Assembly: GCF_900104085.1 (NCBI RefSeq)
Contig: NZ_FNLD01000002.1
Span: 124,001 to 188,000 of the forward strand
Direction: 5' to 3'
Source: Pseudoxanthomonas sp. CF125
GTDB taxonomy: Bacteria > Pseudomonadota > Gammaproteobacteria > Xanthomonadales > Xanthomonadaceae
DNA: 64,000 nt
Shown: piece by piece, positions 13,798-17,628 of the stretch
How positions within the stretch are numbered: position 1 is the stretch's first letter
Layout of the letters: each line of letters opens with the position of its first letter
Notes under the pieces: generated by a model
What the model was told of the DNA's origin: nothing
Seen by the model: only the letters and a program-made list of their open reading frames with translations
Databases searched by the model: none
Position numbers and translations under genes: made by a program

Positions 13798-15015
13798 TCA
13801 GCCTTTGATGCAGATCACCTGACGCAGCGTGTGCACCACTTCCACCAGGTCGGTCTGCGCGGCCATGACCGCATCGATCGACTTGTAGGCGGCCGGCGAT
13901 TCGTCGACCACCGCCGCATCCTTGCGGCACTCCACATGCGCGGTGGCTTCGCGGTGCTGGGCCAGGGTGATGTTCTGCCTGGCCGCCGTACGGCTCATCA
14001 CGCGGCCGGCGCCGTGGCTGCAGCTGTGGAAGCTGTCCGCGTTGCCCTTGCCGCGCACGATATAACTGCGCGTGCCCATGCTGCCCGGGATGATGCCCAG
14101 CTCGCCCGCGCGTGCGCTGACCGCGCCCTTGCGGGTCACCAGCAGTTCCTCGCCACCGTGCGTTTCCTTCTGCACGTAGTTGTGGTGGCAGTTCACCGCC
14201 AATTTCTCCAGCTGGAACTTCGGCAGGCGATGGCGCATTTCCGCCAGTACCCGCGCCATCATCGCCTCGCGGTTGTGGCGCGCGTAATCCTGCGCCCACG
14301 ACACCGCTTCCACGTAGTCGTCGAACAGCGGCTCGCCTTCCATGAAGAAAGCCAGGTCCTTGTCCGGCAAGTGAAAACCGAGCACGCGGTGCGCCAACTG
14401 CTCGCGCGCACGCTCGATGAAGTAGCTGCCGATCAGGTTGCCGGTGCCGCGCGAGCCGCTGTGCAGCATCACCCATACCGCATCGGTCTCGTCCAGACAG
14501 ATCTCGATGAAATGGTTGCCGCCACCCAGCGTGCCGATCTGGCGTTCCAGCTTGTCGGTGCGGATCTTGCGGTGCTTGGCCTTGATCGCCTCCAGCCCGG
14601 CATGCAATCCCGATTGCGCGATGCGCGTCTCATGGCTGTCCGGCAGACGGCGATGCTCGCCACCCGGTCCGTTGCCCACCGGCACGCCGCGCTCGATGGA
14701 CGAACGCAGCTGCGCCAGGTTGTCCGGCAGGTCGCTCGCGCGCAGGGTGGTGCGCACCGCGGCCATGCCGCAGCCGATGTCCACACCGACCGCGGCCGGG
14801 ATGATCGCACCGCGGGTCGGAATGACCGAACCCACCGTCGCACCCTTGCCAAGATGCACGTCCGGCATCACCGCCACCCACGGTCCGACGAACGGGATGC
14901 TGGCGATGTTTCGCAACTGCGCGTGGGCCTGGTCTTCCAGCGGCACGCCGCGCACCCATCCCTTGATCGGGGTGGCGCTGCCTTCGGCATGCAGCAATTC
15001 GTAATTGGTGTCCAT
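13798..15015 (-). CDS. rtcB: RNA 3'-phosphate/5'-OH ligase RtcB
   Basis: 405-residue RtcB, which joins 2',3'-cyclic-phosphate or 3'-phosphate RNA ends to 5'-OH ends using GTP and Mn2+. Metal ligands and active-site residues are all present: Asp52/His54 (PDVHLGKG), Asp79 and Cys82 (GVDIGCGM), His168 (GGGNHFIE), His185 (MLHSGSRG) and the guanylylated His334 (SCSHGAGR). The start at 15015 has AAGGA upstream; a longer frame to 15147 runs through repeat sequence. It follows a slipin gene on the same strand, a recurrent RNA-repair pairing. No rtcA or rtcR is in the window. Confidence 0.97.
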   Translation of the reverse strand: MDTNYELLHAEGSATPIKGWVRGVPLEDQAHAQLRNIASIPFVGPWVAVMPDVHLGKGATVGSVIPTRGAIIPAAVGVDIGCGMAAVRTTLRASDLPDNLAQLRSSIERGVPVGNGPGGEHRRLPDSHETRIAQSGLHAGLEAIKAKHRKIRTDKLERQIGTLGGGNHFIEICLDETDAVWVMLHSGSRGTGNLIGSYFIERAREQLAHRVLGFHLPDKDLAFFMEGEPLFDDYVEAVSWAQDYARHNREAMMARVLAEMRHRLPKFQLEKLAVNCHHNYVQKETHGGEELLVTRKGAVSARAGELGIIPGSMGTRSYIVRGKGNADSFHSCSHGAGRVMSRTAARQNITLAQHREATAHVECRKDAAVVDESPAAYKSIDAVMAAQTDLVEVVHTLRQVICIKG

Positions 15016-15038
15016 GATGTCCTTCCTTGTAGAAAAGA

Positions 15039-15204
15039 GCCCCCTCCCCCGTTCACGGGGGAGGGTTGGGGTGGGGGCTCGACGGAGCCATCGGCAATCC
15101 CTTGCCATGAAGTCATCGAATGCGGCTCTTACAGTATCCGCATTCAATTTCCACGACTCCGTTCGCCCCCATCCCAGCCTTCCCCCGCAAGCGGGGGAAG
15201 GGGC
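15039..15204. repeat. inverted pair of GGGGGAGGG repeats
   Basis: Two self-complementary units sit between slipin and rtcB: CCCCCTCCCCC GTTCA CGGGGGAGGG (15039-15079) and CCTTCCCCCGCAAGCGGGGG with its continuation (15165-15204). The units face each other across about 86 nt. Related units occur at 16429-16449, 21385-21500 and 60689-60852. In this position they could modulate the relative expression of the two genes. Confidence 0.8.
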
Positions 15205-15211
15205 GGTTGCA

Positions 15212-16333
15212 TTACTTCAACGTCACCAACTGCTTCAGCACGCCATCCAGGCCGCCGAACACAGTCAGCTTGTCGATCTTCTCGGTGACCTTCTCCAAGG
15301 CCTCCAGTTCCTTCAGGCGCATCAGCACCGGGCTCTCCTCGATCAGCTTGGCGGTGTTGAGCAGGGAACGCGTGGCGTTCGCCTCCTCGCGCCTGCGGAT
15401 CACGTTGGCTTGCGCCGCCTTCTCCGCCTGCACCACGCTGTTGAGGATGTCCTTCATCTCGCCCGGCAGGATCACGTCCTTCACGCCGACGCCCAGCACC
15501 TCGACGCCGAATGCGCCGACCTGGCCGCGCACGTAACCGAAGATGTCGGCGTCCAGGGACGCCTTGTCGCCCAGCAATTCGTCCAGCGTCTTGGCGGAAA
15601 CCGCCTTGCGCAGGCCGTACTGCAGTTCGCGGTACAGGCGATCGCCGAACTTGGCTACCTTGGTACGCGCGGCGACCGGGTCGGTCACGCGCATGCTGGC
15701 GGCCAGGTTCACACGCAGGCTGACCTTGTCCTTGGTCAGCAACTCCTGGCCCGAGACCTCGACCGACTGCACGCGCAACTCGATCACCTCGGCGCTCACG
15801 TTCTTCTGGAAATTCCAGAAGGCGTAAGCGCCCGGCGCCAGCGTGCGCGCCAGCTTGCCGTCGACGAACACCAGGCCCGCCGACTCGGCCGGCACCTCGG
15901 CGGTCACCGCGACCTTGGACAACACCCCGAGCTGACGCAGACGACGGGTGACGGCGACATCGACTTCGAGATTCCCGGCCAGCGCCACGCGCTGCACCTC
16001 GACCTTGACCAGCCCGCGCCAGTACAGCTTGCGCGAACCCGGCGCCAGCACGTCTTCCAGCTTGCCGTTCTTCGACACCAGGCCGACTTCATCGGCGCCG
16101 ATGTCGGCCAGCACGAAGGTTTCGTCCAGCCTGTCGCCCAGGCGCGCGATCAGCGCATCGGCATCGCGACCGGCGTACTCCGGATTGGCGATGTTGTGCA
16201 CGGCCACCTCGATCCGCTTCAGCGGGTCGAACATGCGGTACACGCCCGCGGCGAGCACGCGCTCGAACTGACGATTTTGATACACCAGGCCGCGCTCGCC
16301 GTCACCGATCACGACCCTCTTGGTCCAGAACAT
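15212..16333 (-). CDS. slipin (SPFH/stomatin-family membrane protein)
   Basis: 373-residue SPFH protein. It is unusually composed: an N-terminal segment (MFWTKRVVIGDGERGLVYQN) and a second copy-like segment (VPAESAGLVFVDGKLARTLA) precede the band-7 domain (about residues 170-330). A coiled-coil region rich in Ala/Glu follows (QAEKAAQANVIRRREEANAT). TAAGGAGT before the ATG at 16333 decides the start. Slipins scaffold membrane microdomains. Pairing with rtcB suggests it anchors or senses RNA repair, but its biochemical role is not established. Tandem tRNA-like sequences lie upstream on the same strand. Confidence 0.92.
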   Translation of the reverse strand: MFWTKRVVIGDGERGLVYQNRQFERVLAAGVYRMFDPLKRIEVAVHNIANPEYAGRDADALIARLGDRLDETFVLADIGADEVGLVSKNGKLEDVLAPGSRKLYWRGLVKVEVQRVALAGNLEVDVAVTRRLRQLGVLSKVAVTAEVPAESAGLVFVDGKLARTLAPGAYAFWNFQKNVSAEVIELRVQSVEVSGQELLTKDKVSLRVNLAASMRVTDPVAARTKVAKFGDRLYRELQYGLRKAVSAKTLDELLGDKASLDADIFGYVRGQVGAFGVEVLGVGVKDVILPGEMKDILNSVVQAEKAAQANVIRRREEANATRSLLNTAKLIEESPVLMRLKELEALEKVTEKIDKLTVFGGLDGVLKQLVTLK

Positions 16334-16458
16334 GGCACTACTCCTTAGGTATGGCTCTGGTGGTCCGATCCATTGCATGACGCCGCAGGCGCGGATCGGT
16401 TCCGCCTGCAGCTGTTGGTTCTCCTTCTCCCACTGGGAGAAGGGAAGCGGAGAAAAGT

Positions 16459-16666
16459 GGAAACGCCCCTTGACGCCGGCGAAGCGGAATCGCAGCGCTG
16501 TCGGCGGAGAGCCGGAAGTTTCCGGTCTGCATGGCGATGTTCAGCCATGTAGACGATCCGCTTCCGTCCGTCCGCTTCAAGAGCAACGATCCGGCCGCGC
16601 CACCGCTGCCTTGTTCCGTACCCGCATTCCTTCGCGGAGTTACCGAACGCCGCATGGGGCGTTTCC
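16459..16666 (-). other. leader of slipin gene with an 11-bp long-range inverted repeat
   Basis: GGAAACGCCCC at 16459-16469 is exactly complementary to GGGGCGTTTCC at 16656-16666. The 186 nt between them contain further short hairpins. The outer arm begins 2 nt after the CCA end of the upstream minihelix (minus strand), and the slipin start lies 126 nt beyond the other arm. No credible reading frame is present. It could be a structured RNA domain (compare the long stem of bacterial Y RNAs) or simply a leader. Confidence refers to the inverted repeat, not to function. Confidence 0.5.
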
Positions 16667-16668
16667 TG

Positions 16669-16708
16669 TGGTGGAACTTTCGTTCCTATTTCCAGATTTA
16701 CAGTCTGG
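16669..16708 (-). ncRNA. tRNA-fragment-like element: tyrosine-type anticodon arm plus CCA-ended minihelix
   Basis: On the minus strand, CCAGACTGTAAATCTGG (16692-16708) is a 5-bp stem with a 7-nt loop CTGTAAA, identical in form to a tRNA-Tyr (GUA) anticodon arm. After a 5-nt linker follows GGAACGAAAGTTCCACCA (16669-16686), a 5-bp stem with a GNRA-type tetraloop ending in ACCA like a mature tRNA 3' end. D- and T-arms are missing, so it is no ordinary tRNA. It directly follows two larger tRNA-like units. Confidence 0.6.
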
Positions 16709-16778
16709 TTTGGAGCGGGAGTCGAACCCGCGACCCGCAGATTCATGGTCTGCTGCTCTAACCCTCTGAGCTATCCAG
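16706..16778 (-). ncRNA. tRNA-like sequence 2 (short acceptor)
   Basis: About 73 nt on the minus strand. D-arm GCTC-AGAGGGTTA-GAGC (16755-16771) with the conserved GG, anticodon-like arm GCAGA-CCATGAA-TCTGC (16737-16753), and T-arm GCGGG-TTCGACT-CCCGC (16715-16731) are all perfectly paired. The acceptor stem has only 4 bp (TGGA/TCCA) before AACCA. Position 33 is C instead of the universal U, which argues against a decoding tRNA. The first unit ends immediately upstream. It sits in the leader of slipin-rtcB. Confidence 0.7.
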
Positions 16779-16848
16779 TGGTGACGTGTCGGAATCGAAC
16801 CGACTTATTCAGCGCTGAGCTGATGCCTAACCATTCGGCCATCGTCCT
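16779..16848 (-). ncRNA. tRNA-like sequence 1 (collapsed anticodon arm)
   Basis: About 70 nt on the minus strand. D-arm GCC-GAATGGTTA-GGC and T-arm GTCGG-TTCGATT-CCGAC are canonical, and the sequence ends CGTCACCA, so a CCA end is encoded. The acceptor stem retains only GACG/CGTC. The anticodon arm TCAGC-TCAGC-GCTGA has a 5-nt loop, so there is no normal anticodon. The elbow (G18G19 with TTC) is preserved while decoding parts are not, as expected for a tRNA mimic rather than a tRNA gene. Confidence 0.7.
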
Positions 16849-17214
16849 CGCGAAACACCCTCTCCCACGCTTCGGCATACGCCACGGCAAGCCCGCGCGC
16901 ACCGGACGGCATCGCAAGCCGTACCGCTGTAGCGTGTTCGATCGATGTTCCGTATTGCCGGCTGTCGCCAACCGGCAATCCTTGCGGGCGTCTTGCGCCC
17001 AATGCATTGCAAACCCAGCCTCGCGCCGCTCGCGTCGAAGCATCACCACGCGGCGCACATGCGCCGGTCGCAGCCGCGCCCCTGCCTCGGGCGCGCAGCA
17101 TCGCTGCGCCCGGATGCTTCAGGGCGAATATCGCTTGTTGAAAGCCGATTTTCCATTGGCTGGTTTTGCCGAACTCTTGCGCTGCATGCGCTTCCTTTGC
17201 GAACGCTGGAAACA
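16849..17214 (-). other. gene-free, hairpin-rich stretch upstream of the tRNA-like units
   Basis: 366 nt with no convincing coding frame on either strand. Hairpins are visible at 17089-17111 (GGGCGCAGC/GCTGCG-GCCC), 16982-17002 (GGGCG/CGCCC) and 16954-16979 (ATTGCCGG/CCGGCAAT). It probably carries the promoter of the tRNA-like/slipin/rtcB transcript. I found no sigma-54 -24/-12 element with correct spacing. Confidence 0.4.
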
Positions 17215-17248
17215 AAACGCCCCCGGGACTTGCGACCCGAGGGCGTTC
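17215..17248 (-). terminator. rho-independent terminator of an unidentified minus-strand transcript
   Basis: AACGCCC-CCGGG ... CCCGA-GGGCGTT, followed on the minus strand by TTTTGTTT. A second 10-bp hairpin, GGGAGATCGG/CCGATCTCCC, stands just upstream at 17259-17283. The only frame feeding it is a 42-codon ORF at 17301-17429 without a good ribosome-binding site, so the RNA may be noncoding. The terminator insulates the tRNA-like/slipin/rtcB region from upstream transcription. Confidence 0.7.
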
Positions 17249-17628
17249 GCGTTGCCTCGGGAGATCGGGGTGGCCGATCTCCCAGGGAGTCCGACCGTGA
17301 TTAGCTGTGCATGTACCGGTTGCGTTCGCCGGGCAGGCGATCGCATGGCTTCGTGCAGGCGCGCGCATCCGCGCCGCGGCGGGTGGGCCACAGTGCAAAG
17401 AGGATCGCGTTGACGAAGTTCGGTTTCATGGGAAGTTCTGGTGTCGCAAAAAACGCCACGGGGGCGAAGGCCGCGCACGATACGCTGCTTGTTTTCGATG
17501 CGCAACTATTTTTTAACATCGAAATTCAGAACCTGACGAACGGTTGCAACGAATGGGCGAGCGATACGTATCGATGCGAATCAGACGCGGCAGGTAGAAT
17601 CGTCGCTGATTCTTTTCGGTGACACCTC

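Follow-up and report, generated by a model that had tools for sequence, protein, structure and literature searches.

A structured leader RNA with two tandem tRNA-like units upstream of slipin and rtcB in Pseudoxanthomonas sp. CF125

Two tandem tRNA-like units ahead of slipin and rtcB

The window (the whole stretch of 64,000 nucleotides analysed here) carries on its minus strand, in this order, a promoter-like site, a 42-codon frame, competing hairpins of which the last is terminator-like and U-rich, a structured ~660-nt RNA with two tRNA mimics, a slipin gene and rtcB. The slipin gene (SPFH/Band 7; 15212-16333; PF01145, E 1.6e-29) starts at MFWTK, as in its homologues, and the RNA ligase gene rtcB (13798-15015; PF01139, E 1.5e-124) was given the start MDTNYEL by inspection. 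By eye, the N-terminal half of slipin contains three similar stretches (ERGLVY..VLAAGVY, EVGLVS..VLAPGSR and SAGLVF..TLAPGAY) that precede or begin the Band 7 domain, and REP-type GC-rich inverted repeats occupy the gap between rtcB and slipin (15016-15211) and a short stretch ahead of slipin (16410-16450). The preliminary description of this DNA had placed the mimics in front of a slipin-rtcB pair. Both genes are indeed identified by their Pfam domains, and among 80 slipin loci the retrieved stretch includes rtcB in 61 (upstream in L105 and L107).

The two units match the Rfam tRNA family RF00005 (gathering score 29) on the minus strand, unit 1 (16779-16846) with 32.5 bits over 16782-16846 and unit 2 (16711-16777) with 48.3 bits over 16711-16777; covariation, and for unit 2 the statistics of its anticodon loop, add to these assignments. 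ARAGORN called no tRNA in the whole window, the two units included. Among the 44 tRNA matches listed for the genome itself (Rfam), unit 2 is the lowest-scoring one and unit 1 does not appear. As read from the minus strand, both units possess D- and T-arms, and their acceptors are 4 bp long (GACG/CGUC in unit 1, UGGA/UCCA in unit 2). The anticodon stem of unit 1 has 5 bp and closes a loop of 5 nt (UCAGC); the anticodon loop of unit 2 has 7 nt (CCAUGAA), position 33 being a C. The 7-bp acceptor of a canonical tRNA is absent from both units, and neither unit of the window has the canonical 7-nt anticodon loop with U33. This is the anatomy that had been announced, including the short loop of the first unit and the missing U33 of the second. 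The accompanying claim that neither unit looks fit for decoding agrees with the window, but 35 of the 61 seven-nt unit 2 loops of relatives do carry U33, and the inability to decode therefore rests on the short acceptor. That acceptor is also kept at 4 bp in the unit 2 of relatives; the acceptor of unit 1, as read from the alignment, is longer in some of them (L068, L077 and L084). The CCA ends ascribed to both units stand for unit 1, where CCA follows the acceptor at 16781-16779 and in 44 of 60 leaders, but not for unit 2, whose "CCA" belongs to the 5′ arm of hairpin 3, which follows it, and, judged by eye from the alignment, is lost in most relatives.

The comparison with relatives relied on a slipin search of 41 genomes, which gave 20 close orthologues in the genus (this genome included), and on a scan of named genomes, from which the best 80 of at least 567 relatives were taken; slipin and its partner genes in GC-rich loci were placed by tblastn. 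In total, 109 leaders were extracted and the 80 close ones considered, of which eight near-identical ones were dropped and 72 aligned. Leaders with clean ends and a good spread were picked from these 72 for model R1 (alignment A2, n = 60), model R2 (alignment A3, n = 51) and alignment A4 (n = 50).

In the tandem alignment A2 (60 leaders), 96.6% of 1906 helix cells are paired, compared to an average of 85.2% for shuffles and 28-48% for slid controls, the counted structure being an RNAalifold fold of the same alignment, which favours it over its slid versions. Changes on both sides affect 23 of the 32 pairs, a figure equalled by none of 500 shuffles. The counted structure omits the anticodon stem of unit 1, in which 83% of cells are paired in the fold of the 72 leaders. 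All five pairs of the unit 2 anticodon stem are kept by changes on both sides, and the D-stem and most of the T-loop of this unit are nearly invariant. Conservation and covariation of the D-, T- and acceptor stems in relatives, on which the preliminary description had let its case depend, are hence found among these 60 leaders, and the comparison supports the view that the units are selected tRNA mimics rather than decaying tRNA genes. That they are degenerate genes left over from a tRNA array is extremely improbable: a few slipin loci do adjoin tRNA-gene arrays (L068, L106, L112 and L133) and unit 1 resembles a full tRNA in L077 and L084, which may show its origin, but the strong conservation and compensatory change in the stems, the constant 4-bp acceptor of unit 2 and the wide distribution all speak against it, and stem covariation in the 60 leaders rules out tRNA genes that are degenerating at present.

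The anticodon loop of unit 2 was read in 70 of the 72 leaders. It has 7 nt in 61 of the 70, with 28 different triplets at positions 34-36. Between 60 close pairs, this loop differs by 0.445 per site, compared to 0.000-0.002 in the acceptor, D- and T-stems of the unit and 0.146 over the remainder of the RNA, a threefold difference. Two further hairpin loops of this RNA diverge to a similar extent (0.32 and 0.40 per site), and positive selection on the unit 2 loop was therefore considered and set aside. Among the 47 distinct loops, Y32 occurs in 40, Y33 in 37, A37 in 41 and A38 in 32 (0-2 of 5000 within-loop shuffles as high), and U33 in 27 (7 of 5000 shuffles as high), although these counts overstate independence because the sequences are related. 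A control loop in the 5′ element of the RNA also keeps position-specific bases beyond shuffles in four of five measures, and the idea that such a frame is unique to anticodon loops was not borne out. From the aligned sequences, bases typical of anticodon loops are kept as the triplet drifts, and this kept frame is not special to the unit 2 loop. Copying of the loops from host tRNAs was also dropped as an explanation, since identity with any of the 32 host tRNA loops (from 30 of 44 tRNA loci) was seen for 7 of the 47 distinct loops, where 4.0 were expected (P ~0.10).

The structured RNA and the region upstream of it

The feature first outlined at 16669-16848 turned out to be part of a much larger one, a conserved structured RNA of about 660 nt (16459-17120, minus strand) that holds the mimics and contains, in the RNAalifold fold of the 72 leaders, many helices with compensatory changes. 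No Rfam family except tRNA reaches its gathering score on the leader stretch. For the 5′ domain (17037-17120), an outer pairing of GAAGCAUC (17120-17113) with GAUGCUUC (17044-17037) is proposed from the sequence and its relatives, outside the RNAalifold fold. It is followed by the hairpin AUUGCCGG...CCGGCAAU (16954-16979; 11 bp, 95% paired, nine pairs with compensatory changes) and by a 5′ element of 104 nt (16850-16953; core CCGGUGCGC...GGCGUAUGCC), which scores 95.3 bits with model R2, the window itself being in the training set of this model (as L001). In A3 (51 sequences), 94.7% of the cells of the 5′ element are paired and 14 of 25 pairs have changes on both sides, here too for an RNAalifold structure of the same alignment, favoured over slid versions. 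Beyond the tandem, both elements that had been described were found: a hairpin with the sequence of a tyrosine-type anticodon arm (hairpin 3, 16692-16708; in the alignment 6 bp, 90% paired, six compensated pairs) and the hairpin GGAAC-GAAA-GUUCC with ACCA after it (hairpin 4, 16673-16686; 5 bp, 96% paired, three compensated pairs). A long-range closing helix of 11 bp joins GGAAACGCCCC (16656-16666) to GGGGCGUUUCC (16459-16469) in the 72-leader fold and is 92% paired, with compensatory changes at nine pairs. The consensus of the 72 leaders has one single order, from promoter-like site through upstream frame (uORF), attenuator-like hairpins and structured RNA to slipin. Parts are missing in single leaders, such as the hairpins in L061 or part of the tandem in L081 and L082.

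A probable sigma-70 promoter (17477-17505) comprises a -35 box TTGCGC (17505-17500), a spacer of 17 nt and a -10 box TATCGT (17482-17477). This stretch is partly conserved in the 72 leaders, several relatives having hexamers nearer to the consensus. A simple consensus scan of the window flags neither promoter nor terminator, and both assignments therefore rest on conservation. The uORF (17301-17429; 42 codons) encodes a weakly conserved peptide, and 17 nt separate its stop from the hairpin that opens the attenuator (17283). In 64 of 70 leaders, a frame of 30-50 codons starts with ATG and has its stop 10-25 nt before the first hairpin, compared to 303 of 12400 random anchors (2.4%) and 225 of 6223 anchors at other places within the leaders; when ATG, GTG and TTG starts are all admitted, such a frame is found in 70 of 70. 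(L061 is devoid of the hairpin anchor, which left 71 leaders for the pairing test described below, and one more flank was too short, which left 70 for this register test.) The stop is UGA in 53 of the 64 leaders, and UGA lies inside segment 1 of the hairpins in many leaders.

The attenuator-like stretch (17199-17296) consists of segments 1 (17296-17285), 2 (17283-17274), 3 (17270-17255), 4 (17249-17236), 5 with a U-rich tail (17227-17210) and 6 (17206-17199), for which competing pairings 1:2, 2:3, 3:4 and 4:5 are predicted. By duplex energy, these four pairings are at least 3 kcal/mol better than the shuffle mean in 69, 70, 67 and 70 of 71 leaders, respectively, and the pairing of segment 6 reaches this margin in 45 of 71. 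Conservation of the segments is too high for strong covariation in the pair counts of A4 (50 leaders). The GC-rich hairpin 4:5 before UUUUGUUU was read by eye. A terminator-like hairpin lies 300-1100 nt ahead of slipin in 18 of 36 distant leaders, versus 3 of 36 in a control of 800 nt of slipin coding sequence, whose base composition differs from that of the leaders. The known leader family His_leader (RF00514) is not matched (22.9 bits for a cut-off of 49).

With a uORF in fixed register and pairings that are predicted to be mutually exclusive, the competing hairpins probably constitute a transcription attenuator. The uORF and the terminator-like hairpin might instead form a separate small gene, the 660-nt RNA being transcribed from its own promoter. 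The near-invariance of the hairpin segment, as might be expected of a separate RNA, the imperfect U-tract, the lack of a terminator by scan and the gap of about 80 nt between the terminator-like hairpin and the RNA would all suit such an arrangement. We nevertheless consider it unlikely, given that the uORF peptide is poorly conserved and yet the distance from its stop to the hairpin is kept, that the 72-leader consensus has one order, and that the terminator-like hairpins of the 18 distant leaders have other sequences in the same region. If the hairpins are an attenuator, a ribosome at the uORF stop would cover segment 1 and allow 2:3 and then the 4:5 terminator to form, turning the operon off, and a ribosome that is stalled or was never loaded would leave 1:2 and then 3:4 to form, so that transcription would continue. 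Because the uORF peptide is poorly kept, the switch would respond to any failure of translation, such as one caused by tRNA loss; as modelled, it looks built for sensing failing protein synthesis. The earlier suggestion that expression of the operon is tied to tRNA damage is thereby retained in part: a link to translation failure is plausible, but the pointer to it is the uORF and attenuator rather than the mimics.

Association of the leader with slipin, RtcB and RlaP

Model R2, which was built from 51 close loci among L001-L092, is free of tRNA sequence. Across the genus, R2 matches and slipin occur in the identical 28 of 38 genomes, none having only one of them, with a strong R2 match (at least 82 bits) some 0.6 kb ahead of slipin on the same contig; four more R2 matches (25-31 bits) lie away from slipin in three of those genomes. 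In an even sample of the class (274 genomes), slipin was found in 15. Just upstream of slipin, R1 matches with at least 45 bits in 11 of the 14 loci other than that of the window, a match that denotes tRNA-like sequence but is not proof of a short acceptor, as R1 also matches ordinary tRNA pairs. Among the three exceptions (L132, L137 and L142), two have only a T-arm remnant and one has no mimic nearby. R2 matches upstream of slipin in 9 of the 14 loci with 14 to 42 bits. The converse scan of the class with R2 gave matches in 13 of the 274 genomes, located beside slipin in this genome and two more; around the matches of the other ten (at most 28 bits), tblastn found no slipin within about 3 kb. 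A second R2 match in the genome itself (30.6 bits) was taken as chance, having no tRNA-like unit or tRNA nearby, and R2 scores of about 30 bits therefore mean little without their neighbourhood. The weak matches, including those of the class scan and those upstream of slipin in the class sample, rest on position. The same holds for the 27 distant slipin loci of the order-level, genome and viral sets (two of which, L020 and L102, represent one genome and four of which have their upstream end cut), where R2 reaches at least 17 bits upstream in 16, and for a Clostridia plasmid record (L176) with a match of 24.9 bits 343 nt ahead of slipin. In Escherichia coli, the leader is reduced and has only a T-arm-like remnant; of 5426 genomes, 1621 cover at least 80% of a 529-base stretch that precedes its slipin. 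This co-occurrence suggests that slipin is the constant partner of the leader RNA, though most of the loci had themselves been located through slipin.

Slipin gave zero matches at E 1e-15 in the phage collection and four loci in the scan of viral contigs. In the viral contig L111, slipin is accompanied by an RlaP with 95% identity to that of E. coli L173, and this is probably host DNA or a mobile copy. A few slipin loci lie near 5 to 24 ARAGORN tRNA calls, accepted mimics counted in (L068, L106, L110, L112 and L133), L112 being a viral contig with 24 such calls.

The preliminary description had seen the mimics as decoys, repair substrates or sensors, which are candidate roles here; that they serve RtcB is not upheld by the distribution. 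Some of the 19 loci devoid of rtcB end at a contig edge, and 11 of their genomes were searched. Seven of these 11 genomes keep the leader and slipin and have no RtcB match (E 0.001); four of the seven are metagenome assemblies that may be incomplete (L069, L093, L094 and L106) and three are named strains (L052, L079 and L084). Therefore, repair of the mimics by RtcB would not be the common purpose of these loci. Furthermore, slipin in E. coli is followed by a gene that carries the annotation nucleotidyltransferase-domain protein and matches RlaP (PF10127), and slipin, RtcB and RlaP stand in a row in L174 and L176. As judged from gene content, the leader RNA is tracking slipin more than RtcB. 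RlaP was tried as the missing partner and rejected, as it is present in 4 of 27 genomes searched and in none of the seven RtcB-free ones.

In three E. coli loci situated after rluF-yjbD (L173, L184 and L185), slipin is followed by the nucleotidyltransferase gene (RlaP by Pfam in L173), and in two of these strains a zeta-toxin-family gene adjoins the pair. RtcR (PF06956) matches in 6 of 41 genomes, five of them above the cut-off. Over 25 genomes of the genus, RtcR and the slipin leader were never seen together, RtcR occurring only in G019, which lacks this slipin.

Possible roles of the mimics and comparison with known systems

We propose that this region is the leader of a stress operon in which an attenuator, an RNA-slipin partnership and mimics serving as bait or reporter are combined, an explanation that, from the sequences compared, we give even odds as a whole. 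The read-through RNA would be the RNA-protein partner of slipin at the membrane, and RtcB or RlaP would be optional repair enzymes; this part could as well be wrong as right. The mimics would offer the tRNA elbow and a variable anticodon loop to tRNA-acting enzymes and might be a bait or a cleavable reporter for anticodon nucleases, which we put forward tentatively: that they act as bait or sensor through this loop is conjecture, favoured by the loop frame and left undecided by the controls. The full chain, in which a translation-failure switch would free two short tRNAs whose loop frame is kept and whose positions 34-36 turn over, acting as nuclease bait or reporter, held by slipin and mended by RtcB or RlaP, is more speculative still.

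The mimics could also be signals for RNase P, RNase Z or the CCA site that release the long leader from the slipin-rtcB mRNA or govern its stability. Their position between leader and coding region, the nearly invariant D-stem and T-loop of unit 2 and the CCA after unit 1 in most leaders agree with this, but the acceptor of unit 2 is kept short at 4 bp, its CCA is not kept, and cutting by RNase P, RNase Z or at the CCA site does not need an anticodon arm; processing is accordingly a quite unlikely role. A scaffold deserves more weight. In 2016, Burroughs and Aravind reportedly described a novel tRNA-like RNA as the cognate partner of SPFH/Band-7 proteins in RNA-repair systems, the SPFH protein being proposed as the scaffold. 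On such a model, the RNA would be a tether, the SPFH counterpart of Y RNA and Ro60, that brings repair or decay enzymes to a slipin ring, and the anticodon loop would merely be free. The linkage of the RNA to slipin and not to any one enzyme, with partners that vary between RtcB and RlaP, is in line with it, as are a loop divergence similar to that of other loops and the position-specific bases kept by another loop. On the other hand, a tether gives no reason for the kept Y32, Y33 and A37 nor for the both-side changes in all five pairs of the unit 2 anticodon stem, and we see it as possible but doubtful. YrlA provides a precedent in that its tRNA-like domain binds PNPase and its stem binds Rsr, but the cited part of the source describes it with D, T and acceptor arms only, whereas the units studied here have an anticodon arm (PMC8394870).

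If the stress-operon explanation is right, it would tie together three things that have been seen apart, namely a membrane SPFH protein, RNA repair enzymes and a tRNA-shaped RNA, and would place a candidate translation sensor ahead of the three. Should the loops be bait, bacteria would keep an evolving record of the tRNA cutters that they have met. A single leader would also give a handle on the induction of RNA repair without RtcR and on the role of this slipin group.

The leader family is very likely the SPFH/Band-7 tRNA-like RNA of the 2016 survey by Burroughs and Aravind: an SPFH gene in an RNA-repair neighbourhood with its own tRNA-like RNA is what that survey reportedly described, and an SPFH gene directly downstream of a conserved tRNA-like RNA in RNA-repair contexts is found here. 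The absence of Ro60, which had been thought to set this case apart, is confirmed for the 41 genomes (TROVE, PF05731, in none), but as a distinction it is weakened by that survey. In the full-text literature, mostly outside subscription papers, the leader, the attenuator and the variable loops are undescribed among the matches listed, and the switch, the variable loops and the RtcB-free cases look new. Membership in the Y RNAs was ruled out by the score of the YrlA model (RF02553, 17.1 bits for a gathering score of 69) and by the missing Ro60.

The Salmonella-type operon rsr-yrlBA-rtcBA, according to the cited parts of its descriptions, also encodes a tRNA-like RNA next to RtcB and answers tRNA damage (PMC7790460, PMC8394870); it differs from the present locus by its Ro60 and by RtcR, which is absent from the genome studied here. 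RtcR-controlled rtcBA operons likewise share RtcB (PF01139) with this locus, whose genome lacks their activator. For the switch, the nearest precedent is the PA5471.1-armZ leader of Pseudomonas aeruginosa, where a leader frame and predicted terminators lie upstream of the RtcB-like armZ and attenuation relieved by ribosome stalling has been proposed; the cited part of that work describes no tRNA mimic, and the gene product serves as anti-repressor for an efflux pump (PMC12057347). In Anabaena, as presented in the section cited, the single repressor TrcR controls rtcB, a slipin gene and an operon of 26 tRNAs and is lifted by translation stress, a regulon that shares rtcB and slipin with the locus of Pseudoxanthomonas and differs from it by its repressor protein and its genuine tRNAs (PMC10272220).
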